From contig JAOUMR010000009.1 of NCBI GenBank assembly GCA_029881435.1, positions 1-59,767 on the forward strand: DNA of 59,767 bases. The letters run 5' to 3'. Below the pieces are notes generated by a model. It was not told the origin of the DNA and made no database searches. It worked only from the letters and a program-made list of their open reading frames with translations. Positions 17,003 through 57,220 of this stretch are shown here, in pieces. How positions within the stretch are numbered: the stretch's first letter is position 1; each line of letters begins with the position of its first letter. Source of the DNA: Nitrospira sp. (GTDB lineage Bacteria > Nitrospirota > Nitrospiria > Nitrospirales > Nitrospiraceae). A program made the translations under genes and the position numbers.

Positions 17003-18376
17003 ATGAACGCATCACCGATGCCCTCCACTGAAAGGTCGCCGAACTGGCGCCCTGATTCAGATCACCCCGATCGTCAGACTGAATCCGTGAACGAGCCGAA
17101 CACGTCGCTCACCGGTCTCTGGTCGTGGGCCTTGTACGATTGGGCCAACAGCGCGTACTGGACCGTGATTCAGATGTTCATCTTTCCGCCGTACTTCACC
17201 CAAGAAATTGCGGCTGATCAAGAATCCGGCAGTCGGCTCTGGGGCATGACGTTGGGGATCGCAGGGTTGATCATCGCGATTGGAGCCCCGCTCTTAGGCG
17301 CCGTGGCAGACCAGATGGGTCGGCGCAAACCATGGATCGGCTTGTTCACTGCCCTGACGATCCTCTCGATCGGCTTCCTGTGGTTCATCGAACCCTCCAC
17401 GAATTTCCTCTGGCCCGCCATGTTGCTCGTAGGAGCCGGGACTATCACGTTCGAGTGCGCCTCTGTGTTTTACAATGCGATGCTGCCAGACCTGGTGCCT
17501 AAATCGCGGGTTGGGCGCTGGTCCGGTTGGGGATGGAGTGCGGGCTACGCGGGCGGTCTGGCCGGCCTACTGCTCGCCGGCCTGTTGTTTCTGATGCCGG
17601 AGCAGCTCCCGTTCGGCCTCGATCGCGATCGAGGCGGACACATTAGAGCCACGGCGTTGCTTGTCGCAGCCTGGTATCTGCTTTTCGCTCTGCCGTTGTT
17701 TATGTTCACGCCGGACGTGCCGGCTTCCGGCAAAGGGCTCAAGCGGGCCATGAAGGATGGGTATGCTCAGCTCCTCGATATGATCAAGGAGGTCCGGCCC
17801 TATCGTGGGATCGTCCGTTTCCTGATCGCCTTGATGATCTACCACAACGGACTGGTGGCCCTCTTCGCGTTCGGCGGTATCTATGCAGCCAGCGTGTTCG
17901 GGATGAGCGAAGGGGACATCGTGACCTTTGGCCTCGCCCTCAACGTGGCAGCCCTACTCGGATCCGCCGGGTTCGGCTGGATAGATGACCGGATCGGTGG
18001 GAAGCAGACTATTTTGTGGTCGCTGGTAGGATTGGCTCTGTCGATGGCAGCCCTGTTGCTCGTGGAATCACGTCTCCTGTTCTGGATCTTTGGGCTGTTG
18101 CTGGGCATCTTCGTCGGACCGGCGCAGGCTTCCAGCCGTTCCTACCTTTCTCGGATGGCGCCCGCCTCTTTGTGCAATCAGATGTTCGGACTTCATGCCT
18201 TAGCCGGTAAAGTCTCGGCTTTTCTCGGGCCGCTCGTCGTTGGTGTGACGATAGACTGGACCGGAAGCCACCGCCTGGGCATGAGCACCATCGTTGTATT
18301 TGTCGTGGTCGGGTTTCTCTTGATGCTTAAGGCGCCGTCGGACTGGAAAGAGGCAACCGGCGCCTCCACCGACTGA
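17003..18376 (+). CDS. MFS transporter, Atg22/UMF1 family
   Basis: About 457 aa with 12 membrane helices. The LWSWALYDWANSAYWTVI segment at the start of helix 1 is the signature of the UMF1 (vacuole effluxer Atg22-like) branch, and GAVADQMGRRKPWIG is the MFS loop 2-3 motif. Bacterial members are thought to export amino acids or related solutes; the substrate is unknown here. The ATG at 17003 follows AAGGAG at a long distance; a GTG at 17087 just before the conserved region is an alternative. Confidence 0.85.
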   Translation: MNASPMPSTERSPNWRPDSDHPDRQTESVNEPNTSLTGLWSWALYDWANSAYWTVIQMFIFPPYFTQEIAADQESGSRLWGMTLGIAGLIIAIGAPLLGAVADQMGRRKPWIGLFTALTILSIGFLWFIEPSTNFLWPAMLLVGAGTITFECASVFYNAMLPDLVPKSRVGRWSGWGWSAGYAGGLAGLLLAGLLFLMPEQLPFGLDRDRGGHIRATALLVAAWYLLFALPLFMFTPDVPASGKGLKRAMKDGYAQLLDMIKEVRPYRGIVRFLIALMIYHNGLVALFAFGGIYAASVFGMSEGDIVTFGLALNVAALLGSAGFGWIDDRIGGKQTILWSLVGLALSMAALLLVESRLLFWIFGLLLGIFVGPAQASSRSYLSRMAPASLCNQMFGLHALAGKVSAFLGPLVVGVTIDWTGSHRLGMSTIVVFVVVGFLLMLKAPSDWKEATGASTD

Positions 18377-43759: not shown

Positions 43760-44565
43760 GGTTCTGTCGCAAGTTTTCTTTCGGAGTCTATTCCGCTCTG
43801 CTCCTCTGTCGAACGTGAAGCCGTGGAGGGGTACGGTGATCGACTGTAAGGGGAGTCATTTCGAGCAAGAGATTATTCTGTGGGACGTGCGCTGGGATGT
43901 GGCCTCCACGATCAGTGACCGCCAGTTGGAATAGAGAATGCATGAACGCGGGGTGGCCGTCGATCATGCAACCTGTAACCGGTGGGTCATCACGTATGCC
44001 CCGGAGTTTGAAGAACGGGTTCGTCGTCGGCAACAGCCAGTGGGCGGAAGCTGGCGAATGGATGAGGCCTCCGTGCGACTGAAAGGAGAGTGGAAATGTT
44101 TGTATATCGCCATGGACAAGGAAGGCCATACCATTGACTTCCTGCTGACGCCTCATCGCGATCGGGACGCGGCCCAGGCGTTCTTACACAAGGCGATTTG
44201 GACTCAGGGACTCCCGGAGAAGATTACGATTGATCAGAGCGGCAGCAACACGGCCGCGATGACCCACGACAATAGGACTCACCAGGCAGTCATCGCGATC
44301 CGGCAATGTAAGTATCTCAACACCTTTGTCGAGCAGGGACCCTGGCGGTGAAACGCAAGGTGCGGCCGATGTTCGGCTTCCAATCGCCGTGGGCGGCCCG
44401 GCGTACGATTGCTGGGATTGAACTCATGCACGCTATTCGCAAGGGACAACTGGCATCCGCTGGAGTGGTGTACCAAACTCCGGCAGCGCAGTGTTATGCC
44501 TTGGCTGCGTAGATGACAAGAAGTGATAATCTCGCTCGTCCTCAGCTAAAGTTTGCGACAGAGCC
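43760..44565. mobile_element. IS6-family element, inactive
   Basis: Terminal inverted repeats are GGTTCTGTCGCAAG on the left and the inverse of GGCTCTGTCGCAAA on the right, matching the IS6 family ends (GGTTCTGTTGCAAA type). Length about 806 bp, typical of the family. The transposase between them is interrupted. No matching 8-bp direct repeat was found in the flanks. Confidence 0.8.
43836..44512 (+). pseudogene. IS6-family transposase, disrupted
   Basis: The DDE transposase reads CKGSHFEQEIILWDVRWDVA, a TAG stop at 43932, then MHERGVAVDHATCNRWVITYAPEF, SWRMDEASVRLKGEWKCLYIAMDKEGHTIDF (first Asp, split after residue 17), FLHKAIWTQGLPEKITIDQSG (second Asp), and near 44345 a frameshift into RKVRPMFGFQSPWAARRTIAGIELMHAIRKGQ with the last conserved block. 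At least two lesions. Not functional. Confidence 0.88.
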
Positions 44566-49238: not shown

Positions 49239-49282
49239 GAAGACAACTTGTCACTCCTGAACGGGGAGGCCCAAAGGGTCTA

Positions 49283-49621
49283 GTGATGGGCATGATTACG
49301 GATCACGACATTTGCATGGCTGCAGCCACCAAGAACAAGCCCCCGTCCGAGATCACCGTGTGGGAAACGACGTCGGGGAAGGCCTACACCTGCCAGCCGA
49401 TCGACAACGTCCACACGGCTCTGGACATCATGAAACGGGAACGGGTCAGACGACTTCCAGTGATGGATGAGGAGGGGCTGTTCCAGGGGATCATCGCGAT
49501 GAACGATTTTTTCCTTGCGGCGCAGGAGGCGAGAGGAAGGAGCATCCCCGCGGTGGCATATGAGGATGTGGTGCACACGATGAAAACAATGAGTGCACAC
49601 CGGATCCTGGTCGGCACTTGA
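49283..49621 (+). pseudogene. CBS-domain protein, N-terminally truncated
   Basis: Begins inside the first CBS domain (GMITDHDICMAA) and then has an intact second one: PIDNVHTALDIMKRERVRRLPVMDEEG and IIAMNDFFLAA. The usual first 50 residues are missing; the frame upstream is open but not conserved. Start at the GTG of 49283 or ATG 49286. Could still make a single-CBS protein, though loss of the first half suggests decay. Confidence 0.6.
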
Positions 49622-49714
49622 AACCGTGTTGAAGTGTGAGTGCTGAGTCCTGAGTTACGGACCTGGAGTCATGTCACTCGGCACGCCCTCAACTCAGAAC
49701 CAGAAGAAACGTGT

Positions 49715-51442
49715 ATGTATCGTCGTGTTTTGGCGTTCGACTTCGACGGCACGCTTGCTGTCAACGGGGATGTCTCTCCCGAAGTTGAAGCGGCCCTGGA
49801 GGAATGCCGCGCAAACGGGTACGTACTCTTCCTCGTGACAGGGCGCCGCTATGAGACCGTCACGCTTGGCCATCTGAGGGAACTGTTCACCGGTATCGTC
49901 TGGGAAAACGGCGCAGTCCTAACCCACACCGCCAGCGGAGAAACCTACCTCCCCTTCGGCCAACTCGATGAGCGGCTGCTCAAGGCAATCGAAGAGGCAG
50001 GCATTCCGTTCGAGCGGGGGCTCGCCATCGGCGCCACTTGGACACCCCATGATCAAACCCTCTGGCGCATCCTCAGCTCATGCGGCAGCAGTGCCTCGAT
50101 CGAGTACAACAAGAGCGCCGTCATGGTTTTGCCACCAGGGGCGACAAAAGGTGCCGGTCTGGAGAGGCTCCTCACCCTCTGTGCTCTATCTCCGAGAAAC
50201 CTCGCGGCGTTCGGCGATGCGGAAAACGACCTCTCGATGCTGACACTCGCCGAGGTGTCGGTCGCGGTGGGCGATGCTGTCCCCGCTGTCATCGAAATAT
50301 CGGATGTGCTTGCCACAGCTCCCGGCCCTCAAGGCGTCCTTGAAGTCCTCAGAGAGTATCCATTAGGCGAAAAATTCCTCGACATCCCACTCAAACGCGA
50401 GCGCCCCATCTTGCTGGGGCAGACCGACTCCGGCACGGCAGTCAGTATCCCGGCAACGCGGTTAGCGGGTCGGAATCTGGGCGTGTTCGGCAATTCTGCC
50501 ACGGGTAAGTCGTGGATGGTAGGCCTCCTCGCGGAAGGACTCCATCACGATGAGTATCAAGTGCTGCTCATCGATCCCGAGGGAGACTTCCGCGGGCTGA
50601 GAGTCCTCCCTCGCTTCGTGTCGATCACAGGTGACCAGGCTTCGCTTCCCCCACCATCCGCAGTCGTCTCGCTCCTTGAGGAAGGAGGCGTGTCGTTGGT
50701 CCTCGATATGAGCCGGTATCCAATCGCTTCGCGCAGCCACTATGTAGCCGAGTTGCTCCGCACCCTGCGTCCCGTCCGGGAGCAAAAGTTTCGCCCCCAT
50801 TGGATCGTGCTGGATGAAGCGCAGGAAATCCTGTTTGAAGGCAGCGAGGTTTCCTCGTTGCTACGTCCCGTTCTGAACACGGGAGGATGGGCCTTTGTTT
50901 CTTATCGTCCCGATCGCCTCAGTGGTTCAGTCCTTGAATCTCTGAATCATCTATTGTTGACCCGGATCACGGACCACGCGATCTGGGATTGCCTGCGCAC
51001 CCATTGTGCCTCGTGCAACTTGCAAGGAGCGAGTCTCGATCAGATCCCGATGGGGAGTGCCCTGCTCTGCGGCGGCGACATCGTCCGCATGCGCCCCGCC
51101 ATTCGCCGAGTCCCCCATGTCCGTCACCTGTATAAATATCTCGATGTCCCGCTCCCACCCGGCAAACGATTCGCCTTTCGTACCGAGAAAGGTCACCTTG
51201 GTATCGAAGCTGCCAGTCTGTATGAACTGTCGCATCTGATCCCGACACTTCCCCTGGAGAGCTTGGAGTATCACGATCGGCGAGACGATTTTGTGAAATG
51301 GGCCGAAGGAACGCTTGGTGATGCAGGACTCACCTCACGCCTTCGTAAAGTGGCGAACCGACGCTATCAGGGAGAGGAACTCCGGCAGGCGCTCGAGCAC
51401 GTCGTGTCGTCTCACTACGATGAGGTCAGAAAGCTCCAGTAA
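49715..51442 (+). CDS. HAD phosphatase fused to HerA-like ATPase
   Basis: 575 aa. Residues 1-220 form a Cof-type HAD hydrolase: LAFDFDGTLA (nucleophile Asp), LFLVTGRR, SAVMVLPPGATKGAGL (Lys) and AAFGDAENDLSML. From about residue 250 a P-loop ATPase follows: GNSATGKSWMVGLLAEGL (Walker A), LLIDPEGDFRGL, WIVLDEAQEIL (Walker B) and a HerA/VirB4-like core ending with SGSVLESLNHLLLTRI. The C-terminal 150 residues are unlike other proteins I know. The two modules in one chain are unusual. Start ATG chosen where the HAD begins. Confidence 0.85.
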   Translation: MYRRVLAFDFDGTLAVNGDVSPEVEAALEECRANGYVLFLVTGRRYETVTLGHLRELFTGIVWENGAVLTHTASGETYLPFGQLDERLLKAIEEAGIPFERGLAIGATWTPHDQTLWRILSSCGSSASIEYNKSAVMVLPPGATKGAGLERLLTLCALSPRNLAAFGDAENDLSMLTLAEVSVAVGDAVPAVIEISDVLATAPGPQGVLEVLREYPLGEKFLDIPLKRERPILLGQTDSGTAVSIPATRLAGRNLGVFGNSATGKSWMVGLLAEGLHHDEYQVLLIDPEGDFRGLRVLPRFVSITGDQASLPPPSAVVSLLEEGGVSLVLDMSRYPIASRSHYVAELLRTLRPVREQKFRPHWIVLDEAQEILFEGSEVSSLLRPVLNTGGWAFVSYRPDRLSGSVLESLNHLLLTRITDHAIWDCLRTHCASCNLQGASLDQIPMGSALLCGGDIVRMRPAIRRVPHVRHLYKYLDVPLPPGKRFAFRTEKGHLGIEAASLYELSHLIPTLPLESLEYHDRRDDFVKWAEGTLGDAGLTSRLRKVANRRYQGEELRQALEHVVSSHYDEVRKLQ

Positions 51443-56744: not shown

Positions 56745-56834
56745 GCGACCGAACAACTCGTTAACAGGATGTGGCAAAAGTCAGCGAATAGGTGTCGTTC
56801 AGAAATTGCTCTCTGACTCCGATTCATTCTTGTC

Positions 56835-56918
56835 GTGGAAGATCGTGGTGCGGCGATTCCCGCGGGCGAGGACATGATAGAACCCGCCAGGGACATCGAG
56901 ACGTGGCTTGCGGGCCAT
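56835..56918 (-). pseudogene. RAYT fragment 2
   Basis: ARKPRLDVPGGFYHVLARGNR, then TIFHDKNE: only about 28 residues of the N-terminus remain, cut at the same region as fragment 1. The 60 bases upstream of both fragments share GAGTTGTAATAAGTC and a CCCCAAT box, presumably the RAYT promoter/leader. Confidence 0.75.
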
Positions 56919-57037
56919 GGGGAGAGTGCAGCGGGTAGAGTTGTAATAAGTCAATGTGCATGTCTGTCCCCAATCCCTGACCCCAATTCGATGACCCGAA
57001 TACGACAGACGCAACGAATCTCCTCTGAGTAAGATTT

Positions 57038-57220
57038 TCAAATGGCTTGATAGGTAAACAGCTCCGCACTGGCCAGAGTTCCATCCTTACCGTACCCTCC
57101 CGCCACCAGTACCGTGCCGTCAAGTAAAAGCGTGGCAGTGTGCTGTGCTCTCCCCACCATCATGGGCGTTGTCGCGCTCCAGGTTCACAACAGTAGGCTC
57201 TTCGCTGGGATTAAATACCC
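57038..57220 (-). pseudogene. Kelch-repeat protein remnant
   Basis: On the minus strand MVGRAQHTATLLLDGTVLVA followed by GGYGKDGTLASAELF and a stop is one kelch repeat with the VLVAGG signature. The frame upstream needs a one-base shift (FNPSEEP... to TWSATTP). So the C-terminus of a decayed kelch beta-propeller protein remains, truncated by the IS5 insertion 110 bases further. Confidence 0.6.

Follow-up and report, generated by a model that had tools for sequence, protein, structure and literature searches.

A HAD-IIB phosphatase fused to a HerA-fold ATPase and a single OrfY/DUF5752-type unit in Nitrospira and other bacteria

Two roles are known for ATPases of the HerA type: they drive DNA as motors, and they work alongside defence enzymes. 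What such an ATPase might do when it shares a chain with a HAD phosphatase is the question raised by a gene of Nitrospira sp. (assembly GCA_029881435.1, contig JAOUMR010000009.1), located in a stretch of 59,767 nucleotides that was analysed as a whole and is called the window here. An open reading frame spans 49640-51442 on the forward strand, and from the ATG at 49715, chosen as the equivalent of the start in close homologues, to the stop at 51442 it encodes one intact protein of 575 residues. An HAD-IIB phosphatase (residues 1-215) is followed by a HerA-fold ATPase (about 228-462) and a tail (about 484-571), with all catalytic motifs present. The gene is single-copy in its host genome, and 22 related loci encode the same fusion at 54-89% identity, the nearest relatives by this gene being Nitrospira genomes. 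A frameshift or assembly artefact as the source of the fusion was rejected because many independent genomes have the same reading frame unbroken. The preliminary description, made from the sequence of the locus, had proposed a single chain joining an HAD hydrolase and a P-loop ATPase without frameshift, and the open frame, the profiles and the homologues all agree with it.

Phosphatase and ATPase modules

The phosphatase domain (49715..50359, + strand) is matched above the curated Pfam cut-offs by Hydrolase_3 (1.8e-25) and S6PP (4e-9), and the NCBIfam model HAD-SF-IIB (TIGR01484; 64.2 bits, cut-off 41.8) places it in HAD subclass IIB, while none of the substrate-level equivalog models of NCBIfam reached its cut-off for this domain. 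Its motifs (D9xD11, T42, K145 and GD168xxND172) were compared across a diverse set of 38 family members: D9 and D11 occur in all 37 members with sequence at that position, K145, D168 and D172 in all 38, and T42 is conserved apart from a serine in one member. The closest solved relatives are YidA, PH1421, BT4131 and other C2-capped phosphatases, with 1ymq and 1wr8 found by Foldseek. Given the complete conserved motifs and this kinship, the domain is expected to be an active enzyme for a small phosphoester. A Cof-type HAD with complete motifs had been anticipated, and Pfam, NCBIfam and fold now converge on HAD-IIB.

A linker of 12 residues (216-227; 50360..50395, + strand), delimited by alignment and by the split point of a two-gene version described below, leads into the ATPase core (residues 228-462; 50396..51100, + strand). 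Pfam DUF87 ("Helicase HerA, central domain") matches residues 237-306 at 1.4e-8 (35.5 bits, cut-off 23.2). Walker A reads G259NSATGKS266 and Walker B IVLDEAQE (D367-E368), with DPEGD at 287-291 and SYRPDRL at 396-402; the 38-member alignment shows no variation in Walker A, the DPEG motif or E368. A profile built from the ATPase region only retrieved from the PDB, as its top match, the HerA of the SIR2-HerA complex (8j4u, 2.1e-10), aligned from the P-loop to a segment past Walker B, and further Sulfolobus HerA (4d2i, 4.5e-8), the HerA of the HerA-NurA complex, YjgR and VirB4, with ABC-transporter P-loops also among the matches. In fold comparison by VIA-align, HerA chains lead the matches for this region at Z 6-7, using AlphaFold models of moderate confidence. 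For the two models (pLDDT 63; pTM 0.39 and 0.43), the moderate quality reflects an input of only 21 fairly similar sequences, and we draw no claim on domain packing from them. Pfam, the profile search against the PDB and fold comparison thus confirm the HerA-fold assignment by three routes. The competing identity named in the preliminary description, a CbiA- or PRK-type kinase, was rejected: the window protein has no CbiA or PRK match at E<=1, and DUF87 matches 14 of 14 diverse members against two of 14 for CbiA, whose best E-value is 0.0024. Weak APS_kinase matches occur in four of the 14.

Of the HerA/VirB4-like motor that had been proposed, the P-loop ATPase with its two Walker motifs and its fold stand, supported by profiles and structures, but two hallmarks of the motor do not. 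The HAS barrel is absent, as the HAD domain holds the N-terminus and only about 12 residues separate it from the ATPase core. Further, Deinococcus HerA has a trans-acting arginine, R513, which follows the acidic pair of Walker B by about 25 residues and for which contact with the gamma-phosphate is expected (PMC9960219). Its equivalent, placed at R398 by profile alignment rather than by structure, is arginine in 15 of the 38 sequences compared, all of them of Nitrospira type and the window protein among them; 19 have histidine there, and the remainder carry neither. We do not claim a loss of ATP hydrolysis, since other arginines (R340, R355 and R360) are almost invariant across the fusion family and, judging from this conservation, could replace the trans-arginine.

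An OrfY-type tail and its trehalose context

Behind the ATPase, a connector (51101..51163, + strand) carries the motif R470-H471-x2-K474-Y475, conserved in the 38-member alignment with K474 replaced by asparagine in one member. The preliminary description had seen a C-terminal region of about 150 residues resembling nothing familiar. The region is real, but it contains a unit of about 90 residues with known relatives (residues 484-571; 51164..51427, + strand; invariant H520, D525, W529 and D536), identified by profile and by fold. Pfam DUF5752 matches residues 496-564 of the window protein below threshold (model positions 131-207; 21.6, cut-off 23). A profile made from fusion tails only finds the fusions and also, separately, both halves of stand-alone DUF5752 proteins in Nitrospiraceae, for example at 17544-17810 and 17895-18077 of a contig of the window's own genome (G000:C32), as well as both halves of OrfY from Thermoproteus tenax (PDB 4cso, 2.6e-11). 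The predicted tail superposes on 4cso in VIA-align with Z 11.9 (92 residues, rmsd 1.9), well ahead of the next match in the region (Z 6.0). Foldseek with the shorter AlphaFold model returned nothing at E <= 0.001; the OrfY match rests on VIA-align and, independently, on the profile search. The stand-alone DUF5752 protein of the window genome itself matches OrfY at 3.9e-17. We conclude that DUF5752/OrfY consists of two tandem copies, produced by duplication, of a unit some 90 residues long, of which the fusion tail is a single copy. PDB entry 4cso names OrfY a transcription factor, which is the depositors' name only, and our literature search found no paper on OrfY.

The stand-alone DUF5752 proteins are tightly associated with trehalose synthesis. 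A TreT-type glycosyltransferase gene is among the neighbours in 22 of 22 DUF5752 loci, often together with OtsA/OtsB, and in the window genome the DUF5752 gene (L048:9461-10162, on G000:C32) belongs to an operon of the order GlgE, maltokinase, GH15/trehalase-like, DUF5752, TreS-like amylase and TreT. In G160 (L049:4981-6357) and in similar frames of 440-469 residues, DUF5752 is joined C-terminally to a mechanosensitive channel (MS_channel_2nd), and the G160 channel fusion adjoins TreT, OtsA and OtsB. By analogy, this arrangement echoes the msc-gt-tpsp operon of T. tenax, which includes a mechanosensitive channel and in which the glycosyltransferase activates the trehalose synthase/phosphatase by complex formation (PMC3634074). 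The fusion loci differ: TreT is nearby in one of about 55, against 22 of 22 for DUF5752. A trehalose operon for the fusion was therefore rejected, DUF5752-TreT being found near one locus only (L104) and OtsA near another only (L062). Likewise, the HAD domain was rejected as a missing trehalose-6-phosphate phosphatase, a role that is unnecessary in the window genome since both OtsA and OtsB are encoded there.

Distribution and gene neighbourhoods

The recurrence of the domain order in other genomes was examined, and the three-part order was found in Nitrospira, in alpha-, beta- and gammaproteobacteria, in an actinomycete and in a cyanobacterium. Full-length homologues with 28-30% identity over 94-99% of the length occur in Caballeronia, Paraburkholderia, Aminobacter, Agrobacterium, Sinorhizobium, Synechococcus and Nonomuraea. 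Many Nitrospiraceae genera carry the fusion, and 175 Nitrospiraceae genomes contained 62 strong tail matches in frames of at least 562 residues; among the Pseudomonadota genomes sampled, nine of 299 encode it at E <= 1e-110, sample centre included. In a tree of the ATPase domain, the Nitrospira-type sequences form clade A together with two gammaproteobacterial bins; a wider clade B is distinct from it, and the three stand-alone ATPases included fall outside both. Where the fusion is annotated at all, it is only as "HAD-IIB family hydrolase" or similar. Our literature search on HAD-HerA fusions and DUF5752 found nothing (a 2004 FtsK-HerA survey lay outside it), so that the three-part architecture is without description in the papers searched, yet listed in databases under a generic HAD hydrolase name, and is a variant of known domain families.

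In one closed, one-contig Nitrospiraceae genome (G179; L107:7977-9741), HAD and ATPase-tail are adjacent ORFs separated by a gap of about 25 bases. The split falls at the linker, between residues 218 and 229, and both halves have in-frame starts; a frameshift is a possible origin. This natural division into neighbouring genes supports a functional coupling of the two parts. Broken fusion copies with frame changes or stops were observed as well, at L108:7971-9703 in G154, a genome that also has an intact copy (L050), and at L008 in G012. In G020, a short ORF that lies roughly 3 kb away from the fusion (L053:4301-4594) matches the tail end (residues 546-575) with its first 30 residues at 53% and is perhaps a duplicated tail fragment.

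Upstream of the window fusion lies a CBS-domain gene (49283..49621, + strand; Pfam CBS 4.9e-10). Such a gene precedes the fusion at 12 of 27 clade A loci, over a wide range of divergence, in addition to the window, and at none of 22 control loci, which are not random genome windows; among the cases listed, CBS gene and fusion share a strand in all seven. The window copy is truncated at its 5' end: its frame (49274-49621) is without the first 40 residues of its homologues, matches a homologue at 80.7% only from residue 41 onward and has roughly one and a half CBS repeats left, with the GTG at 49283 as its probable start. CBS domains often bind adenylates, although several ligand types exist. 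Neighbour sets differ between lineages, and those of clade B vary, including PRC-barrel, universal stress protein (USP), CBS, cytochrome bd (cyd), sigma-54 response regulator, Slp lipoprotein and glycosyltransferase genes; the Aminobacter fusion is accompanied by OtsA, a debranching enzyme and a GT4. Read qualitatively, these neighbours suit a role in stress and carbon metabolism better than one in DNA repair. No NurA, nuclease, repair or defence gene was seen among the annotated or profiled neighbours of the fusions, with many small ORFs lying outside the profiling. Transposase-like ORF pieces, judged by eye to be of IS6-like DDE and REP-associated types, flank the region in the window at 43938-44351 and 56799-57041.

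Candidate functions and known relatives

Our preferred reading, held tentatively, is that the fusion might be an ATP-gated phosphatase for a small molecule, probably a sugar phosphate, acting in stress or energy metabolism. The HerA-fold part would bind and hydrolyse ATP, probably as an oligomer, and would serve as scaffold or switch for the fused phosphatase, comparable to the assembly of HerA with the effector enzyme in SIR2-HerA, rather than as a DNA translocase. The tail might dock the enzyme to a partner, in analogy to the DUF5752 proteins that travel with trehalose-forming glycosyltransferases, and the output would be a phosphosugar or similar metabolite dephosphorylated in tune with the energy or stress state of the cell; for clade A, we assume that the upstream CBS gene contributes adenylate sensing. 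This reading is favoured by the HAD motifs kept in all 38 members, by the invariance of Walker A, DPEG and E368, by the identity of the tail as an OrfY unit according to profile, fold and genome search together with the constant company of DUF5752 and TreT, by the CBS gene conserved in clade A and by the stress and carbon neighbours in clade B. The trehalose phosphatase/synthase of T. tenax, regulated via a complex with the glycosyltransferase of its operon (PMC3634074), further speaks for it. However, fusions rarely lie in trehalose operons, and the trehalose link of the tail may not carry over to them.

One competitor keeps the enzyme and gives up the gate: a housekeeping HAD phosphatase with the ATPase-tail as a localisation or assembly module, its ATPase cycle uncoupled from the phosphatase. 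A stand-alone close relative of the HAD domain in Nostoc (L068), with 54% identity to a fusion HAD, and the fact that the two parts can be separate genes fit this explanation, which we nevertheless regard as unlikely because the maintenance of the fusion across several phyla and the invariant ATPase residues argue for joint selection. We consider it still more doubtful that the protein works in repair or export as a HerA-type hexamer driving the translocation of DNA or polypeptide, while its HAD domain strips phosphate from a DNA end or a nucleotide. The HerA/FtsK/VirB4 fold matches, the intact DE of Walker B and the arginine of the window protein at R398 would suit a motor, but the HAD domain sits where HerA has its HAS barrel, arginine at the R398 site is confined to the 15 members noted above, no NurA or repair gene was seen adjoining, and the HAD domain is of the C2-capped metabolite-phosphatase type.

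Two further explanations appear improbable. In an anti-phage effector, the HerA-fold part would sense infection and switch on the HAD domain, which would deplete a nucleotide or phosphometabolite, similar to SIR2-HerA or to the CARF-HAD phosphatases, which deplete ATP and IMP. A HAD phosphatase effector known from CRISPR defence (PMC12715507), structural kin among HerA defence complexes (8j4u, 8woc, 8zis) and weak PADLOC matches to HerA and mad8 are in line with such a role; on the other hand, the PADLOC matches lie mainly over the P-loop region, the fusion was found in no phage record and a relative in no viral contig, and the many Nitrospiraceae genera that carry it do so with household or stress neighbours. 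A defence island was rejected on the weak PADLOC matches, the lack of a defence gene in the neighbourhoods read and the lack of a phage or viral relative; a defence role as such is still live, though less likely than an ATP-gated phosphatase. The export, repair or defence function envisaged in the preliminary description thus finds no support, with no NurA, nuclease or defence neighbour seen, weak PADLOC matches, no HAS barrel and an unconserved trans-arginine. About as improbable as the anti-phage effector is a bifunctional kinase-phosphatase following the logic of PFK-2/FBPase-2 or PNKP, in which the P-loop domain would phosphorylate a metabolite or its own protein and the HAD domain remove the phosphate. 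Two intact domains for nucleotide binding and phosphatase activity, their conserved fusion and the weak APS_kinase matches would agree with it, but a DE Walker B with an invariant catalytic glutamate (E368) is the signature of a hydrolase, not of a kinase, and the best profile and fold matches of the ATPase region are to HerA.

If the ATP-gated phosphatase holds true, a conserved HerA-metabolite phosphatase family would extend the HerA fold into metabolism. In its broadest form, which we put forward with still more reserve, there might be a widespread class of bacterial enzymes whose HerA-fold ATPase has given up its DNA role and now uses ATP to gate or assemble a sugar-phosphate phosphatase, with the OrfY-type unit as partner address. 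A HerA machine would then serve central or osmolyte metabolism. Beyond this, the unexplained tail receives a structural identity, with DUF5752 as a tandem of the same unit, and the tie of DUF5752 to trehalose synthesis makes the role of OrfY testable.

Compared to known systems, the fusion shares with HAD-IIB phosphatases (the Cof family, the archaeal phosphoglycolate phosphatase PH1421/TA0175 and sucrose-phosphate phosphatase) all HAD motifs, the C2-type cap and the best PDB folds, yet these are stand-alone enzymes, while the HAD of the window is fused. With HerA (Sulfolobus 4d2i, Deinococcus 7wrw, SIR2-HerA and the HerA-DUF4297 complexes) it has in common the RecA-type core, Walker A, an acidic motif after strand 2, a Walker B of the form DEA[QH] and a similar downstream P motif; it differs in the HAD replacing the HAS barrel, in the unconserved trans-arginine site and in that no NurA or effector gene was seen adjoining. 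The nearest stand-alone ATPase relatives found are compact HerA-like ATPases of Proteobacteria (about 480-515 residues; L093-L095), which have the DPEGD motif of the fusion ATPase and likewise begin directly at the ATPase core, but carry no HAD and no matched OrfY-type tail and lie on a long branch apart from the fused family in the tree. Finally, profiles relate the tail to each half of OrfY (4cso) and Pfam DUF5752, and fold comparison relates it to the OrfY structure, but OrfY/DUF5752 consists of two units, with DUF5752 situated beside TreT, whereas the fusion joins a single unit to HAD-HerA and rarely occurs in trehalose operons.
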